Below, piece after piece: positions 54,319-64,000 of a stretch of 64,000 nucleotides of DNA. Origin of the DNA: Halomonas sp. (GTDB lineage: Bacteria; Pseudomonadota; Gammaproteobacteria; Pseudomonadales; Halomonadaceae); the NCBI RefSeq assembly GCF_017983445.1, contig NZ_JAGOBJ010000008.1, forward strand, positions 124,001 to 188,000, written 5' to 3'. Made by a program: the position numbers and the translations under genes. Numbering within the stretch: position 1 is the stretch's first letter; each line of letters starts with the position of its first letter. The notes beneath the pieces were generated by a model. The model saw nothing but the letters and a program-made list of their open reading frames with translations. It was not told where the DNA came from and searched no databases.

Positions 54319-55434
54319 ATGAGTAGCGTACTGTTTACCGAGCACTCTACCGATGATGGCCATGCGATCGCTGAAATCAAGCTTAACGCCGAGCGCGCGC
54401 TGAACGCGTTAACGCTAGACATGATCGAGGCCATCCTGCCGCAAATAGACGCCTGGGAAACCGACGAACGCATTGTCGCTATCCTGCTGGATAGCGCTGG
54501 TGAGAAAGCCTTTTGCGCGGGCGGCGATGTGGTCAGCCTCTATAAAGCGATTACCGGCCAGGGCGACCCCGACTTCCCCGAGCGGTTTTTCGAGACGGAA
54601 TACCGCCTGGACTACCGGCTCCACACCTATTCAAAACCGGTTATTTGCTGGGGCAACGGCATCGTGATGGGCGGCGGCATGGGACTTTTAAACGCCAGCA
54701 GCCACCGGGTAGTAACGGAAACCTCCCGCTTGGCCATGCCCGAAGTGACCATTGGCCTGTATCCCGATGTGGGGGCCAGCTGGTTTTTAAATCGCCTGCC
54801 GGGCGGTACCGGGCGGTTTCTAGCCATGACCGGCAGTCAGATTAACGCCCCAGATGCGCTAACCCTGGGCCTGGCCGACCGCTGTATTGCCAGCCACCGC
54901 CGAGAGGAGTTTATCCAAAAACTTATGAACGCAACCTGGGGCTCGGGAGGCAATACCGATGCCCACGGTGTGGTCAACCGCACACTGCGCGAGCTCGAGC
55001 AAGCCTCCAAAGCCGATTTCGCGGAGCTGGATACGCCGGTAGGTAATTTCGCCCCGTTGATTCGCGAGTTGATGGATCACGACACCGCTGAGCAGATGGT
55101 GGCTGCCGTACTGGCGGTGGAAAGCGAAGACAAGTGGTTCAGCAAAGCGCAAAAGACCCTGGCGCACGGCAGCCCGGTTTCCATTAAATTGATCGATGAG
55201 CAGCTAAAGCGCGCCAAACATATGTCGCTTGCCGAAGTGTTTCAGTCAGAGCTCGCGCTTTCGGTCCAGTGCTGCCGTCATCGGGAGTTTCCAGAGGGCG
55301 TACGCGCCTTGCTCGTGGATAAAGACGGCCAGCCCGCCTGGACCTATGCCGATGTAACGGCGGTGGAATACAGCTTTATCAATGAGCTTTTAGCCTCGCC
55401 GTGGCAGACAAGTCCGCTTGCTGATCTTAGGTGA
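54319..55434 (+). CDS. 3-hydroxyisobutyryl-CoA hydrolase (crotonase fold)
   Basis: 371-residue enzyme, longer than a plain enoyl-CoA hydratase and typical of the HIBCH group, which cleaves 3-hydroxyisobutyryl-CoA to the free acid. Signature segments are LNALTLDMIEAI, KAFCAGGDVVSLYKA, NGIVMGGGMGLLNASSHRVV and MPEVTIGLYPDVGASWFLNR. AAGGA precedes ATG. It sits between the dehydrogenase and mmsB, in reaction order. Confidence 0.92.
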   Translation: MSSVLFTEHSTDDGHAIAEIKLNAERALNALTLDMIEAILPQIDAWETDERIVAILLDSAGEKAFCAGGDVVSLYKAITGQGDPDFPERFFETEYRLDYRLHTYSKPVICWGNGIVMGGGMGLLNASSHRVVTETSRLAMPEVTIGLYPDVGASWFLNRLPGGTGRFLAMTGSQINAPDALTLGLADRCIASHRREEFIQKLMNATWGSGGNTDAHGVVNRTLRELEQASKADFAELDTPVGNFAPLIRELMDHDTAEQMVAAVLAVESEDKWFSKAQKTLAHGSPVSIKLIDEQLKRAKHMSLAEVFQSELALSVQCCRHREFPEGVRALLVDKDGQPAWTYADVTAVEYSFINELLASPWQTSPLADLR

Positions 55435-55488
55435 CCCAGACAAAGCAGATGTTCTTGAACGTTAACAACCAACAATAAGGACAATATT

Positions 55489-56388
55489 ATGGCTATCGTG
55501 GCATTTATCGGTTTAGGCAATATGGGCGGCCCTATGGCGGCCAACCTGGTCAAGGCCGGTTACATCGTGCGTGCATTCGACCTGTCAGAAGCCGCCTTGG
55601 AAACAGCTCAGTCACAAGGCTGTGAAGTAGCAAGCTCGGCCCGTGAAGCCGCCGCCGAGGCTGATTTTATTATTTCGATGCTGCCCGCAGGCAAACATGT
55701 AAAAGCGCTGTACGTTGATGGGGATGTGCCGCTGTTTGACGTCGTGCAACCGGGCGCGCTGATTATTGACTGCTCGACCATTGATGCTGATACGGCGCGT
55801 AACGTTGCCGATATCGGTGAAAAACGCGGCATCAGTTTTGTGGATGCGCCGGTGTCCGGTGGGGTAGGCGGTGCCCAGGCCGGCACGCTGACCTTTATTG
55901 TAGGTGGCAGCGATGCCCAGTTCGCGAAGGCTAAGCCCGTACTCGATGCAATGGGCAAAAATATCTTCCACGCGGGCGACCACGGTGCGGGGCAGGTGGC
56001 GAAGGCGTGCAACAACATGCTGCTATCGGTATTGATGGCAGGCACCTGCGAAGCGATCAATATGGGGGTTAAAAACGGCTTGGACCCCGCCGTGCTGTCT
56101 GAAATCATGAAGCAAAGCTCGGGCGGTAACTGGGCACTAAACGTTTACAACCCATACCCTGGGGTAATGGAAAACGCCCCCGCGTCAAAAGGCTATCAAG
56201 GTGGCTTTCAGGTAGACCTGATGATCAAAGACCTGGGGCTTGCCATGGATGTCAGCCAGCAAAGCGCCGCGCCCGTGCCTATGGGCTCTGCCGCCCGCGC
56301 GCTGTTCACGCTTCATAAAGCCGGTGGCAACGGCAAACTCGACTTCTCCAGCCTGATGCAGTTTTATCAGGATAAAAGAGAGTCGTGA
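55489..56388 (+). CDS. mmsB: 3-hydroxyisobutyrate dehydrogenase
   Basis: 299-residue NAD-dependent dehydrogenase that oxidises 3-hydroxyisobutyrate to methylmalonate semialdehyde. The Rossmann loop IGLGNMGGPMAANL, the substrate loop DAPVSGGVGGAQAGTL and the catalytic K172 (GAGQVAKACNNML) are present. AAGGAC lies before ATG. Last gene of the valine-branch operon. Confidence 0.95.
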   Translation: MAIVAFIGLGNMGGPMAANLVKAGYIVRAFDLSEAALETAQSQGCEVASSAREAAAEADFIISMLPAGKHVKALYVDGDVPLFDVVQPGALIIDCSTIDADTARNVADIGEKRGISFVDAPVSGGVGGAQAGTLTFIVGGSDAQFAKAKPVLDAMGKNIFHAGDHGAGQVAKACNNMLLSVLMAGTCEAINMGVKNGLDPAVLSEIMKQSSGGNWALNVYNPYPGVMENAPASKGYQGGFQVDLMIKDLGLAMDVSQQSAAPVPMGSAARALFTLHKAGGNGKLDFSSLMQFYQDKRES

Positions 56389-56416
56389 ATATTGAGGGGT
56401 GAGGGGCGAAAGATGT

Positions 56417-56505
56417 TGTAGCGCGTGGTAACGAATCTTGCGGGGCACGAGCAAATGAGCCACCCGCAGCGGCGGCCCGGCGCGAAAGGGCGGCAAAGCC
56501 ACCCC
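56417..56505. repeat. Dispersed GC-rich repeat, copy 1
   Basis: It shares TGTAGCGCGTGGTAACGA and, after a spacer longer than in copy 2, CACCCGCAGCGGCGGCCCGG followed by GCGAAAGGGCGGC-AA-GCC with the copy at 57291-57363. The end can form a GGGCGGC/GCCxCCC hairpin. It lies between mmsB and the GST gene. Confidence 0.7.
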
Positions 56506-56575
56506 ACTCCTAAACCACCTTTATCTCACGGCGTGATCGGGTAAACTCTTAAAAAACCAACCAATAAGGAACGTT

Positions 56576-57202
56576 ATGATCACGCTGTGGGGCAGAAGCA
56601 ACTCAACCAACGTCAAAAAAGTCATATGGGTGCTTGAAGCGCTGGAAGTACCTTTCGAGCAAATTCAGGCGGGCCTCCAACACGGGGTCAATAACACCCC
56701 GGAATACCTGGCAATGAACCCTAACGGGCTGGTGCCGGTATTAAAAGACGACGCCACCGACAGCCTGCTTTGGGAATCCAATACCATCATTCGCTACCTG
56801 GCCGCGCAATATGGTCAAGACAAGCTCTGGGTAGAAGACCCGGCCAAGCGCGCCCAGGCAGAAAAATGGATGGACTGGTCAAGCAACACGCTTTCGCCCG
56901 CCCACCGAGTGATCTTGATGGGCTATGTAAGAACGCCGCCCGAGCAGCGTGATAACGCCAAGATCGAAGCGGGCATGCAGACCTGTGAAAAATTATTTGA
57001 ACTGCTGGATAACGCACTCGCCAAGCAAGTATGGTTCTCCGGCGAGGAGTTTGGCCTGGGTGATATCGCCGTCGCGCCGTTTATCTACAACTTATGGAAT
57101 ATCGGCCTAACTTGGCAGCCGCGCCCCAACCTGGAGCGTTGGTACCAGCAGCTAACTGAGCGCCCCGTATTTCGTGACGTAGTGATGATTCCGGTTACCT
57201 AA
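56576..57202 (+). CDS. Glutathione S-transferase family protein
   Basis: 208 residues. The N-terminal thioredoxin-like domain begins [20 protein letters not shown] and includes [12 protein letters not shown] and [11 protein letters not shown], the glutathione-binding ES motif. The helical C-terminal domain contains the LGDIAVAPF motif. AAGGAA precedes ATG. It stands alone, with a GC-rich repeat copy on each side; substrate unknown. Confidence 0.9.
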
Positions 57203-57290
57203 ACCGCTTCATTTTTATAGCCGCACCCTTCGCGGGTGTGCTAACGCTTACACCGCGCTACAAAATCTTAAATATGCGAGATTTCAAACC

Positions 57291-57363
57291 TGTAGCGCGT
57301 GGTAACGAGGAACGAGGCACCCGCAGCGGCGGCCCGGCGCGAAAGGGCGGCGAAGCCGCCCCA
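57291..57363. repeat. Dispersed GC-rich repeat, copy 2
   Basis: Second copy of the element at 56417-56505, with the hairpin GGGCGGC-GAA-GCCGCCC at its end. A 9-bp inverted copy of its first bases (CGCGCTACA) lies at 57254-57262. It sits between converging GST and panE-like genes. Confidence 0.7.
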
Positions 57364-57376
57364 AGCCCGAACACAG

Positions 57377-58297
57377 CTAAAAACCCGCCTCCAACACCGC
57401 CAACTCACTATCCAACCCGCACAAAACGTCACAGCCCACCCCATGCCGTTCACCACTCTCAATCAACGGCCCTAAAATCGCCCCACGCTCGGTAAGCCGT
57501 TTAGCCTCCACATCCTGCAACATTGAAGCCTTATTGTTCGCCGTCTTCTCAATAACATCCCAAACCAACGCCAGCCACGCATCCAAGCCGCTATCGCCAT
57601 TAGGCGCTTGAATACCTTCGGTCACCATAATCCCCGCCACTTCCTTTACTACCGCCTCAACGCGGCCTGCGTAAGCAGCGCCACGCAGCTCGCCGTTTCG
57701 AATACTATTCAAAGCAACCAACGGATTAATCGCTGCATTCACCGCCAGCTTCTGCCACAAGCGGCTGCGAATATCGTCAACCGCCGTAGCCACAAGCCCG
57801 GTTTGAGTAAGTTGATAGGCTATCCGCTGTGCCAACGCACCGTGGCGATTCTCAAGATCCCCCACAAACGTATGCCCACGCCCCGCATGTACCACGGCAT
57901 CATCGCCCGTTAGGTAAGCGCCTTCCGTAGTCGTGGCACACAGCACGGGGCCAGACCAAATTTCAGTCAGCTTCGGCTGAGCAAAAAAACCGTTCTGCCA
58001 CAGCACCAGTGGGGTAGTCGAAGGAATAACGTCTGCCAGGCTTTCAAGCGCCGCTTCAGCAGCCATCGCCTTGGTAGTGATATGTACAAAAGCGGGCGGC
58101 GCCGGCGCATTGGCTAACAACTGCGATGTGGTTATAACGTTTAAGTGTTGGCTATACGGTTCGTCCTCGGGCGTCATTATGGTTTGCTGCTTTGGCAGTA
58201 CACGACGACCAACTAGTGTGATGTCAGCTAGAGGGGAAAGCGAATGGGCCAACAAGCGGCCTATGGCGCCGGGGCCGAGAATCCAGTGTGAGATCAT
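57377..58297 (-). CDS. Ketopantoate reductase family protein (PanE/ApbA)
   Basis: 306-residue NADPH-dependent 2-dehydropantoate 2-reductase-like enzyme. The dinucleotide motif is WILGPGAIGRLLAH, the catalytic lysine K183 is in WQKLAVNAAINPLVAL, and the C-terminal KASMLQDVEAKRLTE segment is typical. It probably reduces ketopantoate for pantothenate/CoA synthesis, though this family has several paralogs with other substrates. Transcribed toward the GST gene. Confidence 0.87.
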   Translation of the reverse strand: MISHWILGPGAIGRLLAHSLSPLADITLVGRRVLPKQQTIMTPEDEPYSQHLNVITTSQLLANAPAPPAFVHITTKAMAAEAALESLADVIPSTTPLVLWQNGFFAQPKLTEIWSGPVLCATTTEGAYLTGDDAVVHAGRGHTFVGDLENRHGALAQRIAYQLTQTGLVATAVDDIRSRLWQKLAVNAAINPLVALNSIRNGELRGAAYAGRVEAVVKEVAGIMVTEGIQAPNGDSGLDAWLALVWDVIEKTANNKASMLQDVEAKRLTERGAILGPLIESGERHGVGCDVLCGLDSELAVLEAGF

Positions 58298-58719
58298 CGA
58301 AACGTTACTCAGCAGCGGTGTTGTTGCTCAGCTTAGCTTGTTTGCTACAAGAAAATGAAGTTGAGGTGAAATTGCTTGAGAGCGGCTAATTGCTAATGAC
58401 GATGCTTAACATAACATGCTAGCTTTAAAGCTAAGTGGGTTTAGTTAATTCTAGTAAGGATTTGAGCTATAGCGCTTGCTAAAGTGGGTGTCAGGATAAT
58501 TAATCCCCTTTCGATCCTGAGAGGTCGTGCGCGAAATGTAAAAGGTGGGCGAATTATGGCTATAATTCATAATTTTAATTAATATCTCAAAAGGATCATA
58601 TGCTTGGAAGAATCTAGCAGGCTGCATTTGCCAGAAAAAGTGCCATCAAGTTCATTCAATCATAGAACACGCCGTCTAATACGCTGTTATGCAAGATTGA
58701 AACAGTCAGTGGAGTAATA
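58298..58719. other. Intergenic region before the TIR operon
   Basis: 422 bp with no credible gene. Composition becomes clearly AT-richer from about 58360 onward, matching the TIR genes and unlike the region to the left. A small palindrome AGCTTTAAAGCT-like element is near 58420. The operon's promoter should be here but no strong consensus stands out. Confidence 0.5.
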
Positions 58720-59631
58720 ATGTCGATCTCAACAATTTCAAGTTCGATCACTAGGTTGCAAAAAGAAATATCAGATCTCCACCACAAGATGAGCTTGGAG
58801 ACAAAAAAGGAGTCTGATTGTGGAAATCGGATTGGGCAAATTGAAAGGAGTATCAACAAAAGCACTAGCATTACCACTTTGAAAAGCAAAAGCGCTGAAG
58901 TCCAAAGAAAGCAAGCTGACATAGCTAAAATACAGGTTAAAAAAGCGGATCTTTATAAAAAGTTATCCGACAAAGAAGGGCAGTTGCTAAAGGCTAAGCA
59001 AGATCTGTATAAGGAAGAGGAAAAAGAACGTAAAAAGCAAGCCGTTGCCGAAGAGAGAGAAAGGAAAAAGCTCGCAGACATAGAAAAGAGGCGTCAAAGA
59101 GATCAGTTTGAATACCAGCGTCGGTTACGAGCGGAAATCAATCAAACTGCCGATATGGCTGTTTCTGTGAAGGAATTTGCGACTTCTCGAAATATTTCAC
59201 ATACAGATATTGTGAAATATGACTTATTTATATCCCATGCTTCAGAAGATAAAGAGGAATTTGTTCGTCCGCTAGCTGAAACGCTAGAAAATATTGGGGT
59301 CAAAGTATGGTATGACGAATTCACTTTGAAAGTTGGGGATAGCTTACGACAAAGTATTGATCAGGGATTGGTGAACTCGAGATTTGGAACAGTGATTCTA
59401 TCATCTGCTTTTTGCTCGAAGAACTGGACACAGTATGAGCTTGATTCGATGGTTGCACGGGAAATGAATGGGCATAAAATGATATTGCCGATATGGCATA
59501 AAATAACAAAGAGTGAAGTTATTAGTTTTAGCCCAGCGCTTGCGGATAAAGTTGCGCTAAACACTTCTTTGCAGAGCATTGAGGAAATCGCGGGAGAGCT
59601 CGCAGAGGTAATATTGGGCGCAAAGGAATAA
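58720..59631 (+). CDS. Coiled-coil TIR-domain protein
   Basis: 303 residues, no signal peptide or membrane segment. Residues about 10-145 are a charged, heptad-rich coiled coil (Lys/Glu/Gln rich, for example KEEEKERKKQAVAEERERK). Residues about 167-300 are a TIR domain: YDLFISHASEDKEEFVRPL, VKVWYDEFTLKVGDSLR and ILSSAFCSKNWTQYELDSM. E240 occupies the place of the catalytic glutamate in NAD-consuming TIRs. ATG follows GGAG by five bases. A TIR-SIR2 gene starts 21 bp downstream, so the two form an operon. By analogy with Thoeris ThsB it could sense infection and make a cyclic ADP-ribose-type signal; that is inference. Confidence 0.88.
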   Translation: MSISTISSSITRLQKEISDLHHKMSLETKKESDCGNRIGQIERSINKSTSITTLKSKSAEVQRKQADIAKIQVKKADLYKKLSDKEGQLLKAKQDLYKEEEKERKKQAVAEERERKKLADIEKRRQRDQFEYQRRLRAEINQTADMAVSVKEFATSRNISHTDIVKYDLFISHASEDKEEFVRPLAETLENIGVKVWYDEFTLKVGDSLRQSIDQGLVNSRFGTVILSSAFCSKNWTQYELDSMVAREMNGHKMILPIWHKITKSEVISFSPALADKVALNTSLQSIEEIAGELAEVILGAKE

Positions 59632-59652
59632 CAATTATATGAAAAGGCCAAG

Positions 59653-60981
59653 ATGAAGGTATTTATAAGTTATACGCACCAGGATAAAAAATATGCTGAG
59701 TTGATCGCTGATCGTCTGCGTAATGCTGGGCATGATGTTTGGTATGACGGCTGGAAGCTTAAGGCTGGCGATAACTTGGTTGAAAAAATCAACCATGGTT
59801 TGAAGGAAACCGACGCCCTAGTGGTGATTTTGAGTAAGAACGCGTTACAATCCAAGTGGGTTATGCATGAGTTCTCTGCTCTGGCGTTTGGAGAGCTATC
59901 AGGCAAAACTAATAGGATCATTCCGGTGCTTGTTGACAAAAGCACTGTTCCAGAATATCTGGCGCGCTATGTTTACGTTGATCTCTCCGATAACACCGAG
60001 ATTGGACTCAACGGTATAGTTCGCGCTTTATCAGCGCAACCAACCACCAAACCGATACTAAAGAGTGATCGGAAACGTTCATATGAGAAGGCCGTCGACG
60101 CTTTGTCGGATACCCTCCACGAGGGGCGCTTGACGCTGGTTTGCGGTGCGGGAGTTTCAATTGATGCGGGCATTCCATCGTGGAATGCGCTGCTACTTCG
60201 CCTTCTCGATAGAATGATGTCACGCATTTCGCAGAATCATTCCATATCATTTAAGGATGTGGATCCACTAGAATTTCAGAGACGCTACGGACCATCGGCG
60301 CTTGTTGTAGGTCGATACCTTAAGTCCAATCTAGGGAATGACTTTATGCCGGAGCTTCGTGAGGCACTCTACTCAGATGACCCCACATCATGCGACATTA
60401 TTGAAGCGATTGCTGAGCTTGCGCGACCACAAAGGGATGGTAGACCGCTCGATTCAATCGTTACTTTCAATTTTGACGGTCTGACAGAAGAGGCATTAAC
60501 CAACAGTAATATCCGGCACAAGGCCATTCATGAGGAGGGGATACGAGTGGGCCCTAACGAGCTTCCCATCTACCATGTTCATGGCTATTTACCTCGCAAG
60601 GGAAAAATCAAGAAAGAGACAGATATTGTATTCAGCGAGGAAGCCTATCACAGCCAGTTCATTGACCCCTTCAGTTGGTCGAATTTAACTCAACTTAACA
60701 AACTAAGCCAGAACACTTGTCTGTTCCTTGGTTTGAGCTTGACTGATCCTAATCTACGTAGGCTTCTCGATGTCGCTCATAGGAAGAATCCTTCACGGCA
60801 GCTTAACCATTACATCATAAAGAAAGTTCCTAGTTTTTCAGGTAAAAACGACACAGTCGATGATCTGGCTCTACTATTGGAAGAGCAAGATGCTAATGAA
60901 TTGGGGCTCAATGTAGTATGGATAGGGGCCTTTAATGAAGTAGCACCACTGCTAAGACGAATTGCAGGAGATCAAGAATAA
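59653..60981 (+). CDS. TIR-SIR2 fusion protein
   Basis: 442 residues. An N-terminal TIR domain (about 1-125) has MKVFISYTHQDKKYAELIAD, VWYDGWKLKAGD and SKNALQSKWVMHEFSA with the likely catalytic E73. A SIR2-like NAD-binding domain (about 155-440) has the GAGVSIDAGIPSW loop (165-177), TFNFD (271-275, N273 and D275), the catalytic-type histidine H310 in YHVHG, and FLGLSLTDPNLRRLL (358-372) as in SIR2_2-type defence effectors. There is no SLOG domain, unlike Thoeris ThsA. AAGG precedes ATG. Both halves belong to families that degrade NAD+ in abortive-infection systems, so an NAD-depleting anti-phage role is likely, but this exact arrangement with a coiled-coil TIR partner is not one I can name. 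Confidence 0.88.
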   Translation: MKVFISYTHQDKKYAELIADRLRNAGHDVWYDGWKLKAGDNLVEKINHGLKETDALVVILSKNALQSKWVMHEFSALAFGELSGKTNRIIPVLVDKSTVPEYLARYVYVDLSDNTEIGLNGIVRALSAQPTTKPILKSDRKRSYEKAVDALSDTLHEGRLTLVCGAGVSIDAGIPSWNALLLRLLDRMMSRISQNHSISFKDVDPLEFQRRYGPSALVVGRYLKSNLGNDFMPELREALYSDDPTSCDIIEAIAELARPQRDGRPLDSIVTFNFDGLTEEALTNSNIRHKAIHEEGIRVGPNELPIYHVHGYLPRKGKIKKETDIVFSEEAYHSQFIDPFSWSNLTQLNKLSQNTCLFLGLSLTDPNLRRLLDVAHRKNPSRQLNHYIIKKVPSFSGKNDTVDDLALLLEEQDANELGLNVVWIGAFNEVAPLLRRIAGDQE

Positions 60982-61067
60982 CAAGCCACGGAAGAATGAC
61001 ACCCCAAGCGGCTCACCTTAGAGGAACGTTATATGCTTTTCCTAGGCTAAAATCATGAGCAAATACT

Positions 61068-61847
61068 TTAATACGGCGTGATCAACTGGCCAATTTTATA
61101 TCCCTTGCTTGCTAGCACGTGTAGCCAGAGTAGGGTGGCAAGGCTGCCAATAGGAGTGAACTTGGGCCGCAGGTCATTACCAATCACGTTGGTTTAGATT
61201 ATCAGCTCCTGCGTTACCGCAGGCACCTTCGCTTGATCGATGGCCAGCGCGCCGACGAGTGTCGAGGGTAGGTTATTCATTACCGAAGCTACGATGGCCA
61301 AAAGGAAGCCAGTGCCCAGCGTGGCGATAAAGTCACCCTGCTGTGCCAGTCACTCAAGCACCAACGCACCATAATTGGTTAGCCCTGCATTCCTCGGCCC
61401 GTATACGACAAGATACATGGCGATTGAGAACAGCACTATCTGTCAGGGGGCGCCGCGTCGTGCACTTGATACGGAAACGATGGCCCTGTGGCCCGCTTGC
61501 CACCAGCGTCCGGCAATGACCATCAGTAGAATGGCACCGGTTCCCGTAACAAACGCGATGGAAATGCCCAAAGGGACAGTCACGAAGTAGGCGATAAGCA
61601 GTATCGTCAGCAGCGGAAAAGCTGCCCGAAATACCAGTAGATTCTTTATGGCAGAGCGCGGTGGATCGAGGCTCTCAACAGAGTAGTGTTTAGAGATGCA
61701 GCGACTAAAGGCTATCCATAGCACGGTCAACGTTGCCGTTATTGACACCAGATTCACTCGCTCCATGACCGCCGCATAGCGATTAAAGCCAATCTCAAAG
61801 TAGTTATCACTGATGATATGAGCGAGGCTAGAGATAACCAAATACAA
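61068..61847 (-). pseudogene. Decayed ArsB-type arsenite efflux pump gene
   Basis: Minus-strand frame matching the C-terminal two thirds of ArsB: NYFEIGFNRYAAVMERVNLV, QIVLFSIAMYLVVYGPRNAG, LGTGFLLAIVASVMNNLPST and [17 protein letters not shown]. The frame is interrupted by stops at 61443-61445 and 61350-61352 (both TGA where Trp is usual) and 61194-61196 (TAA). The N-terminal third is missing beyond about 61850. Non-functional relic. Confidence 0.85.
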
Positions 61848-61902
61848 GCTTGCTGCTCGGGACCTGAACGAGCTCTACGCTCGTCATGTCAGTAGTATCG
61901 GT

Positions 61903-62169
61903 GTGAAGTTGGCAGGAATGTGTTTCAAGCTGATGCTTACAATCCAGGAGATCATTCTATCTGGTTACTCGCAGCGGCTTGATCGTAGCACCGGATATGA
62001 GAGAGACGACTATCTCTACAGTGTGGGGCTTACACGCGATCAATGGCAGTTGCTGAACTTTGAGGCGCCGGGTGATATCGACGCTTTTGACTGTCTTGGG
62101 CGCTTCGAAATACAGTGTAAAGTACTCGCTTTCTGGGTGATGAAGCCGATTGAGCCGTTCCAAGTTTAG
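61903..62169 (+). CDS. Hypothetical protein, possibly a fragment
   Basis: 88 codons from GTG; the frame continues open upstream to about 61847 without a good start or ribosome-binding site. Contains SGYSQRLDRSTGYERDDYLY followed by SVGLTRDQW. No family recognised. It abuts the truncated arsB relic, so it may itself be a broken gene. Confidence 0.35.
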   Translation: MKLAGMCFKLMLTIQEIILSGYSQRLDRSTGYERDDYLYSVGLTRDQWQLLNFEAPGDIDAFDCLGRFEIQCKVLAFWVMKPIEPFQV

Positions 62170-62441
62170 CAAGTCCTTATTCAGTATCACTCTGCATAGA
62201 TTGCAATATCAGGCATGATTCTTCATTTAATTTAAGCAAGGAAGTGCGGCTTAGTCCGTGGTTGTCACACTGAGCCCACTGCCAGGCACAGCTTTACCCA
62301 ATATCGTCATGTCGATATCTATCATACGAACGTGTTTGCGTTCTCAATGCTTACTTATTGTGGTAGGCCGTAACGTGATGCGGGATATTATACTGTGACC
62401 TGGTTCAAATAGACTTTTTCGATGGCAATGGAAAAAAAGTG

Positions 62442-62894
62442 ATGAAAAAGCATTCTCTTCTAGCGGCTTTGATGGTCAGTACATTGGCCTTGGCTGGCTG
62501 CACAGGGATCGACGCAGTCTCTAGTGATACCGCTAGCAATGCGTCATTGAAGAATACCTACTGGAAACTCGTGACAGTCGGTAAGCGCCAGGCGGTGGTT
62601 GACGGTGAGGCGCGCGAAGCGCATCTAGTGCTACACACCGAGGGCGCTCGACTGGCGGGCTCCACTGGCTGTAACAACTTGATGGGGTCGTATGAGCAGA
62701 GGGGCGACGAGTTAAGTTTTGGCCAGTTGACCACCACTAGTATGGCTTGCGCCAGTGAGCTAATGACGCTTGAAAGAGACTTTCTCAATGCTCTTAACGA
62801 TGCCGTCAACTGGCAAGTTGAGGGTGAAACGCTGATTCTCGACAATGCAAAAGGTGAAGAGCTGGTCCGTTTTGAGGCCGTGTATCTTTACTGA
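62442..62894 (+). CDS. META-domain lipoprotein (HslJ-like)
   Basis: 150 residues from ATG at 62442. A lipoprotein signal peptide ends in the lipobox LALAGC, so the protein should be anchored to the inner or outer membrane. The META/HslJ domain follows: NTYWKLVTVGKRQ, GSTGCNNLMGSYEQRGD, LTTTSMAC and LERDFLNAL. HslJ-type proteins are linked to heat shock and novobiocin resistance in E. coli. Stands alone with about 270 bp of gene-free sequence before it. Confidence 0.85.
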   Translation: MKKHSLLAALMVSTLALAGCTGIDAVSSDTASNASLKNTYWKLVTVGKRQAVVDGEAREAHLVLHTEGARLAGSTGCNNLMGSYEQRGDELSFGQLTTTSMACASELMTLERDFLNALNDAVNWQVEGETLILDNAKGEELVRFEAVYLY

Positions 62895-63373
62895 ACAAAT
62901 CCAGTTTTCGTAATTTGGCATCGGCATCATGCTTGATCAAATAGACTAAAATTTTTTGAGTATTGCGAAGTAATCAGGCGAGGAAATGATTTGAATCGGC
63001 TACGTACGCCTCAAAGATAATCAGTTCGCTCTTACCTCATCCATTGTTCTAAACAAGTAGCGGTTTAGACATTCGTTTCGGAGCTTACCGTTTAAGCTTT
63101 CCACAAAGACATCCTGCATAAGCTTGTCCAGCTGAATACAGCCGTTTCTTTACTTCTGAAAACGCAGTGGTGTTGCCTAACCTCTGCTTGAGCCAGGTTA
63201 CTCGGTGCCCAACCAGCTTGCTTCTTACTCTGCCTACCCGCGCCGCTGTGCCCAGCGTATGACGATCCTTGCAATTCTTGCAGAGCTACTATTCTGAGAG
63301 AACGGTTCAAACTGGCAATCAGGGCTCAATAGCCCTTACCCAAAAAACCGCAGATACAAGCAAGGAGAGCGAA
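62895..63373. other. Intergenic region with insertion-sequence debris
   Basis: About 480 bp without an intact gene. Holds the transposase remnant described separately; a 72-codon minus-strand frame at 63092-63310 partly overlaps it in another phase and shows no family signature. Otherwise nothing recognised. Confidence 0.5.
63021..63140 (-). mobile_element. IS3-family transposase (OrfB) C-terminal remnant
   Basis: Minus strand encodes CIQLDKLMQDVFVESLNGKL then RNECLNRYLFRTMDEVRAN and TGA. This is the conserved DDE/rve segment of IS3-family OrfB (the usual form is IQPGKPMQNAFVESFNGRLR, then DECLN). Both ends of the gene and the terminal repeats are absent, so it is a dead fragment. Confidence 0.75.
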
Positions 63374-64000
63374 ATGGCACTGCATTTGAAAAACTTGGCA
63401 AATCAAACGGTGATCATAACAGGCGCGACCACGGGTATCGGCCTGGCAACTGCGCGCATGGCCGCCGAGCAGGGCGCACGCCTGGTTCTGGCAGCACGTG
63501 ACGAGAATACGTTGCGCAAGCTTTGTGACGAAATCAATTTCGCCGGTGGCGAGGCCGTTTACGTCGCGGTGGATGTCGGCGATAAAGCGCAAGTTCAGAG
63601 GATAACGCAAACCGCTATTGATACTTTTGGCGGCTTCGATACCTGGATTAACAATGCGGGCGTCTCCCTTTTCGGCAACCTGCTGGATATCGACGAGAAG
63701 GATTACCACCGTCTGTTCGACACGACTTACTGGGGCGTCGTGTACGGTTCGCTGGAAGCGGCACGCCACTTGAGCAAGCGCCGTGACGGCTACGCCGGTG
63801 CGATCATTAACCTCGGCTCAATTGCTTCGGATCAAGCCATCCCCTATCAGGGCATGTATTCGGCCGCCAAGCATGCCGTCAAGGGCTTCACCGACGCCCT
63901 GCGCATGGAACTCGAACATGTCGGCGCGCCCATCTCGGTCACATTGATCAAGCCGGCCAGCGTCGCCACGCCTTTCGCCGAACATGCAGGCAACGTCATG
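63374..64000 (+). CDS. SDR family NAD(P)-dependent oxidoreductase (3' end outside window)
   Basis: 209 codons visible; the frame runs off the right edge without a stop. A classical short-chain dehydrogenase: the cofactor loop TGATTGIG (residues 17-24), NNAG (93-96), and catalytic S149, Y162 and K166 (SAAK context). AAGGAG precedes ATG by six bases. Substrate unknown. Confidence 0.9.
   Translation, partial: MALHLKNLANQTVIITGATTGIGLATARMAAEQGARLVLAARDENTLRKLCDEINFAGGEAVYVAVDVGDKAQVQRITQTAIDTFGGFDTWINNAGVSLFGNLLDIDEKDYHRLFDTTYWGVVYGSLEAARHLSKRRDGYAGAIINLGSIASDQAIPYQGMYSAAKHAVKGFTDALRMELEHVGAPISVTLIKPASVATPFAEHAGNVM

Follow-up and report, generated by a model that had tools for sequence, protein, structure and literature searches.

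In the current analysis we have examined a two-gene locus in 64,000 nucleotides of Halomonas sp. DNA (contig NZ_JAGOBJ010000008.1, positions 124,001 to 188,000), referred to here as the window. Gene 1 encodes a TIR protein of the coiled-coil type (CC-TIR) and gene 2 a protein in which a TIR domain is fused to a SIR2 domain. An earlier note on this DNA regarded the two as one NAD-targeting defence system distinct from classical Thoeris. The two same-strand open reading frames (ORFs) and the 21-bp gap between them are as that note described, and this arrangement suggests that the genes are probably co-transcribed. Neither gene accompanies the other in any of the further loci compared, and we favour, with moderate confidence, a reading in which the tandem arose from two independent integron cassettes. 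The genes, their domains and the sites bounding them are as follows.

58505..58692, forward strand: attI-like dispersed repeat with copies in relatives, ending in the core site GTTATGC, the left end of the cassette patch
58687..59635, forward strand: CC-TIR cassette unit, G^TTATGC to TAACAA, as delimited by the limits of homology in relatives
58720..59631, forward strand: gene 1, AbTIR-family coiled-coil-type TIR protein, 303 aa, with Glu240
59215..59619, forward strand: TIR domain of gene 1, residues about 166-300
59632..59652, forward strand: junction of genes 1 and 2, 21 bp, AACAA/TTATATG..., without the attC-like sequence seen behind gene 1 in relatives G058, G071, G528 and G556
59653..60981, forward strand: gene 2, TIR-SIR2 fusion protein, 442 aa
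59659..59997, forward strand: N-terminal TIR domain of gene 2, residues 3-115, with W69 and E73
60103..60963, forward strand: SIR2 domain of gene 2, residues about 151-437, with GAGVS at 165-169, N273 and H310
60979..61034, forward strand: weak attC-like remnant 3' of gene 2, TAACAAGCC...GTTATAT, found by pattern match

Domain organisation of the two proteins

The protein encoded by gene 1 matches the Pfam families TIR_2 (residues 170-263, 1.2e-20) and TIR (166-267, 6.1e-11). Its TIR domain is closely related to AbTIR, a bacterial TIR of solved structure (1e-66), and other solved bacterial TIRs are matched as well. The whole protein aligns with the PADLOC candidate model PDC-S66, residues 1-298 covering positions 1-280 of the 282 in the profile (1.7e-110). 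Glu240, to which the earlier note assigned the catalytic position, lies in WTQYE and coincides with the WxxxE position of the AbTIR alignment. The coiled coil is putative, being based on composition, weak SMC-type matches and the full-length PDC-S66 match. This first TIR does not represent a new architecture, and by sequence gene 1 is a known kind of protein. It shares with the AbTIR/CC-TIR family (PDB 8g83, 7uwg; PADLOC PDC-S66) the TIR domain, the WxxxE glutamate and the end-to-end match, and shows no difference from it at the level of the protein; what differs is the context, namely the adjoining TIR-SIR2 gene and the cassette-like unit seen in relatives. AbTIR is reported to produce 2'cyclic ADP-ribose (2'cADPR; PMC10022894). 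Most simply, gene 1 would encode a second, independent TIR NADase.

Gene 2 has an N-terminal TIR_2 domain (residues 3-115, 2e-30) followed by a SIR2_2 domain (268-394, 1.1e-16), in the order given by the earlier note. The residues named in that note are all at their positions: W69 and E73 in the TIR half, and GAGVS from 165, TFNFD with N273 and HVH at 308-310 in the SIR2 half, N273 and H310 being aligned with N112 and H152 of ThsA. A profile built from six relatives of gene 2 gave ThsA chains as the top matches (3e-13 to 2e-11), followed by bacterial TIRs and KomC. ThsA, KomC and DSR2 also rank first in a Foldseek search with the AlphaFold model of the protein (mean predicted local distance difference test score, pLDDT, 60.6).

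The absence of a SLOG domain, claimed in the earlier note, was confirmed by Pfam, by PADLOC and by the length of the protein. The SIR2 domain reaches about residue 437 and the protein ends at 442, so there is no room for one. A hidden SLOG domain, by which the locus would have become ordinary Thoeris, was therefore rejected; the check with the AlphaFold model was negative too.

The N-terminal TIR part of gene 2 is matched by the PADLOC bSEFIR model (1.1e-17). Among the best 25 of 39 PADLOC families, none has its best stretch spanning the TIR and SIR2 domains together, and the six NCBIfam matches of gene 2 all fall short of their cut-offs. In the relative from Paenibacillus validus, the bSEFIR model aligns over residues 2-283, from the TIR into the SIR2 part. 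The domain content is consistent with NAD-targeting, defence-type proteins, as had been proposed. A TIR protein encoded in G058 (L023 844-1962, 372-aa ORF) has a TIR domain 37% identical to that of gene 2 and another C-terminal part.

Occurrence and conservation of the TIR-SIR2 family

Full-length relatives of gene 2 have been identified in a Chloroflexi metagenome-assembled genome (L001, 67% identity), in Paenibacillus validus (L002, 55%), in a proteobacterium of the same phylum as the window (G904, about 50%) and in three viral contigs (L015-L017, 39-42%). The family is rare and scattered. With the genome of the window itself included in every count, a TIR-SIR2 gene was detected once among the 151 genomes sampled from the family, once among 369 from the class and twice among 398 from the phylum. 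The fusion was found in 2 of 75 candidate stretches of genome contigs. A single-sequence query of viral contigs recovered it in none of 11 candidate stretches; with an alignment query, 6 of 177 were positive (three full-length TIR-SIR2, three TIR only), and the same three full-length members were recovered among 128. No record covers 80% of the query among 85 plasmid and 3 phage records, and no DNA match to gene 2 was found in E. coli genomes. In L015-L017 the gene lies, as judged by eye, downstream of a repressor-like helix-turn-helix ORF, with a small ORF between the two in L017.

The two halves of the protein differ markedly in conservation across the seven-member alignment of the window protein, L001, L002, L015, L016, L017 and G904. 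Pairwise identity is 51-75% (median 55) for the SIR2 halves and 18-61% (median 25) for the TIR halves, and the TIR is the less conserved half in 21 of 21 pairs. The SIR2 residues G165, G167, S169, N273, D275, H308 and H310 are invariant in all seven. In the TIR half Glu73 is kept in six, being replaced by Lys in L015, and Trp69 of the WxxxE motif occurs in the window protein only. Four members (L001, L002, G904 and the window protein) pass the Pfam TIR_2 threshold, L016 and L017 score below it, and L015 has no match; for L015 an AlphaFold model of low confidence (mean pLDDT 54.2) gives a hint at most of persisting alternating strands and helices. These losses, together with the weak or missing Pfam matches in the viral-contig members, indicate that catalysis through a complete WxxxE motif is no shared requirement of the family.

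The same residues bear on the possibility that signal production and NAD+ cleavage are combined in one protein, the fused TIR being a cyclase or NADase acting in cis with SIR2. The presence of W69 and E73 in the window TIR and of the glutamate in nearly all members would suit such a role. The missing tryptophan in six of the seven, the lysine of L015 and the sub-threshold or absent Pfam TIR match of the three viral-contig members speak against it, and we regard it as unlikely.

Eight other CC-TIR loci, of 7-11 kb each, were searched for the SIR2 half of gene 2 (tblastn, 1e-5): G528, G058, G071, G556, G561, a Niallia plasmid, E. coli MS1657 and a Priestia plasmid. None of the eight gave a match; nor did three partial TIR matches (L008-L010). 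In the reverse comparison, gene 1 found a CC-TIR in none of the six other TIR-SIR2 loci (tblastn), at most the TIR of the gene itself being matched; L016 offers 72 bp of downstream sequence. The search was extended genome-wide in five carriers. No full TIR-SIR2 gene is present in the CC-TIR carriers G528, G058 and G071, nor in the further genome G537, a single TIR-only match being found in G058; and no CC-TIR is present at 1e-5 in the genomes of L001, a metagenome assembly of unstated completeness, and L002, apart from the TIR of the L002 gene itself. In G556, G561 and G904 the partner was checked locally only. The claim that the two genes form one system, which by the earlier note's own criterion would be refuted if homologues never occurred as a pair, is not borne out by these loci, and the two-gene system was rejected as the principal explanation.

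SIR2 genes related to gene 2 stand alone in both E. coli prophage regions examined out of four matching records, with a virion morphogenesis gene on one side and baseplate gene V on the other (L075 2280-3485, L074 2280-3485). The L075 protein (401 aa) shares 36% identity with the SIR2 half of gene 2, and it shows a weak AbiH match (0.0029); no Pfam TIR was detected in it, this being the one such protein scanned. Clusters of three TIR genes are encoded in plasmids of Priestia megaterium (L046 3968-8807) and Sinorhizobium medicae (L013 4519-8117), the gene order in the latter being TIR, SIR2, TIR, TIR, Thoeris-like.

Cassette-like organisation and the panE locus

In G528 and G071 the homology of the CC-TIR unit is bounded by 58685/6 and 59634/5; G556 has the same layout. 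Behind the unit in these three relatives follows an attC-like sequence of about 70 nt and then different genes. In G058 the unit shares the 3' end and homology also includes the upstream repeat, and in G561 a more divergent CC-TIR (76%) has attC-like sequence on both sides. By sequence, an attC-like element lies downstream of CC-TIR in all five relatives to which the attC comparison was confined, the Niallia, Priestia and E. coli loci being left out. Both ends pair in six of the nine attC-like sites around CC-TIR. Bottom-strand folding of the downstream sites gave z-scores of -3.5 (G058), -3.2 (G561, ends unpaired), -2.0 (G556), -1.7 (G071) and -0.65 (G528), and of the upstream sites -1.95 (G528), -1.2 (G556), -0.25 (G071) and +0.13 (G561). 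G058 and G071 each have an integron integrase gene (intI) that passes the NCBIfam cut-off, and G528 has a broken intI.

In the window TAACAA runs directly into TTATATG, which resembles a cassette start, so the attC expected behind gene 1 is missing. The two genes would accordingly have been joined by cassette fusion. An attC-like site 3' of gene 2 was recognised by pattern match (TAACAA...GTTAT), and G582 has a single 47-bp stretch that matches it at 77%. A first attC scan, which was unspecific in that several of its sites fell within coding DNA, picked up the upstream site of gene 1 in G528 and missed both the site 3' of gene 2 and the window's repeat ahead of gene 1; boundaries were then compared directly. 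The cassette interpretation is firm for gene 1 only, since the gene 2 site folds poorly and gene 2 has not been seen as a cassette elsewhere.

The patch is flanked by the following features.

57380..58297, reverse strand: panE/apbA-type gene, chromosomal flank of the insertion locus (ApbA 1.1e-19, ApbA_C 1.4e-22), beside or near the locus in relatives
61089..61853, reverse strand: arsB relic forming the right part of the patch (PF02040 1e-16 for the ORF at 61446-61847)

The arsB relic mentioned in the earlier note is real, and a second copy (85%) occurs elsewhere in the genome. Homology to G537 resumes at 62289, to the right of it. The patch has a GC content of 0.43-0.44, against 0.49-0.68 in 2-kb windows elsewhere, which bears out the proposal of an AT-rich and probably horizontally acquired segment. 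An Rfam search of 55000-64000 (E up to 5) gave a single match, far under its cut-off.

With seven candidates scored per genome, the repeat at 58505-58692 was detected in 12 or more of the 24 relatives compared from the same genus. Over its last 70 bp or so the repeat shares 81% identity with a site in G528 that lies about 0.2 kb away from the broken intI and is followed by attC-like sequence, and for this reason the repeat is called attI-like. The window copy is unstructured (z +0.57 and +0.58) and a second copy in G058 is structured (z -2.17). In all four relatives compared with this in view the repeat is near panE, directly in G010 and G528 and separated from it by a single ORF in G531 and G529, and in each a different gene lies behind the repeat. 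Copies were located as follows.

L078 3765-3835
L079 1465-1649
L080 1541-1653
L081 4591-4774
L082 2244-2428
L054 2784-2968 and 4665-4821

These dispersed repeats of about 70-190 bp may represent orphan attI sites that serve as landing places across a genus.

In G010 a 437-aa SIR2_2 protein (L079 1663-2976; nearest PADLOC model PDC-S25, 8.1e-30) is encoded directly behind the repeat beside panE. At the same chromosomal site G537 encodes a Tmn/YobI-type P-loop ATPase (L052 2854-6510; PF20693 1.7e-119, PADLOC Tmn 8.3e-82) between panE and a META-domain gene, and no repeat was found in the G537 stretch examined. On the strength of these two genes, the panE locus is one where defence-type genes recur, though not in every relative.

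Proposed origin and role of the two genes

The reading we consider probable is that genes 1 and 2 arrived as separate integron cassettes at the attI-like site next to panE and became a tandem when the intervening attC was lost. Gene 1 would act alone as an AbTIR-type NADase. In gene 2 the fast-evolving N-terminal TIR or TIR-like domain would perceive an infection cue, whether through binding of a phage product or a nucleotide or through self-assembly, and release the conserved C-terminal SIR2 NADase; the released SIR2 would deplete NAD+ and lead to abortive infection. This reading is suggested by the unpaired loci, the cassette layout with its missing attC, and the invariant SIR2 residues set against a diverging TIR. 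It is further supported by the proximity of the SIR2 half to ThsA, KomC and DSR2 in sequence and fold, by the three full-length members in viral contigs and by the defence-type genes at the same site in G010 and G537. A role of the TIR as a sensor would be in keeping with PMC9503650, in which inactive domains of the TIR class are reported to sense nucleotides.

Several observations weigh against this interpretation. With W69 and E73 both present, the TIR of the window protein may still be catalytic. The family as recovered here comprises only seven members, L016 with its short downstream sequence among them, and the AlphaFold models of gene 2 and L015 are weak. Some of the attC-like folds around CC-TIR are poor (G528 downstream, G071 and G561 upstream), and the gene 2 site folds no better than shuffled sequence (z +0.47 on the top strand, -0.57 and -0.52 on the bottom strand). 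No cassette form of gene 2 was observed in other loci, and by eye L001 and L002 lack attC-like ends. None of four TIGR02249 matches in the window's genome reaches the cut-off for an integron integrase. In G058 and G528 the cassette and intI share a contig but are about 168 kb and 117 kb apart, respectively. No copy of the attI-like repeat was found in the 12-kb stretches (L076, L077) that surround intact intI genes in G058 and G071.

A two-gene relay, in which CC-TIR makes 2'cADPR on infection and the gene 2 TIR reads the signal or co-assembles to switch SIR2 on, appears improbable. The close spacing on one strand, with its probable single transcript, would be in keeping with it, as would the 2'cADPR made by AbTIR, the listing of 2'cADPR among ThsA activators in PMC11204291, and the loss of attC, which would lock the genes together. 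These are opposed by the absence of the partner from every other locus compared and from the five genomes searched throughout, by the lack of a SLOG domain in gene 2 to bind 2'cADPR, and by the report that ThsA is efficiently stimulated by 3'cADPR and is predicted not to be by 2'cADPR (PMC10022894). The fusion may itself have created a new co-transcribed, Thoeris-like relay, in which a diversifying TIR sensor, with a TIR-made signal or TIR-TIR assembly, would gate a SLOG-less SIR2; this is possible and finds no support in the comparisons, and we hold it to be slightly more doubtful still. A degenerate Thoeris, that is a ThsA-like effector which has lost SLOG and answers other ThsB-type TIRs, the adjacent CC-TIR by chance among them, is very improbable: the best SIR2 matches are indeed to ThsA, and about 30% of ThsA homologues are reported to have an N-terminal multi-transmembrane domain in place of SLOG (PMC7272460), but gene 2 has neither a SLOG nor a macro receptor, and the genomes of L001 and L002 gave no CC-TIR-type match besides the L002 gene itself, other TIR types not having been searched.

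Among known systems, type I Thoeris resembles the locus in having TIR next to SIR2, and the SIR2 of gene 2 is closest to ThsA with the catalytic Asn and His conserved. It differs in that gene 2 lacks the C-terminal SLOG (STALD) domain, carries its TIR at the N-terminus of SIR2 and has, in the loci compared, no conserved TIR partner of the thsA-thsB kind. With bSEFIR and other single-gene TIR-like systems of PADLOC, gene 2 has the N-terminal TIR part in common; the difference is that no model among the best 25 of 39 families has its best stretch over both domains of gene 2. DSR1/DSR2 and KomC belong to the same SIR2 fold group and differ in their other N- or C-terminal parts, while the E. coli prophage proteins share the SIR2 part. 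Integron-borne anti-phage cassettes (Darracq 2025, Getz 2025, Kieffer 2025, as cited in PMC12444791 and PMC13092281) likewise carry defence-type genes with attC sites; the present locus differs in its two presumed cassettes fused by attC loss, its attI-like site and a genome without intI. TIR and SIR2 are treated as separate or partnered domains in PMC10952713. SLOG-less ThsA relatives, AbTIR, SIR2 and TIR genes of prophage hot spots and integron-borne defence genes are already in print. No description of this TIR-SIR2 family was found in the literature searched, which is not proof of its absence from print.

The fusion of cassettes at an attI-like landing site by panE would mean that adjacent defence genes can mimic an operon without being a system, and caution is suggested in guilt-by-association assignments made from such cassette neighbours. 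The TIR-SIR2 protein could be a compact NADase switch that works without SLOG. If its fast-evolving TIR, mostly devoid of the WxxxE tryptophan, is a receptor, the family could provide a direct case of a bacterial TIR that senses instead of catalysing.

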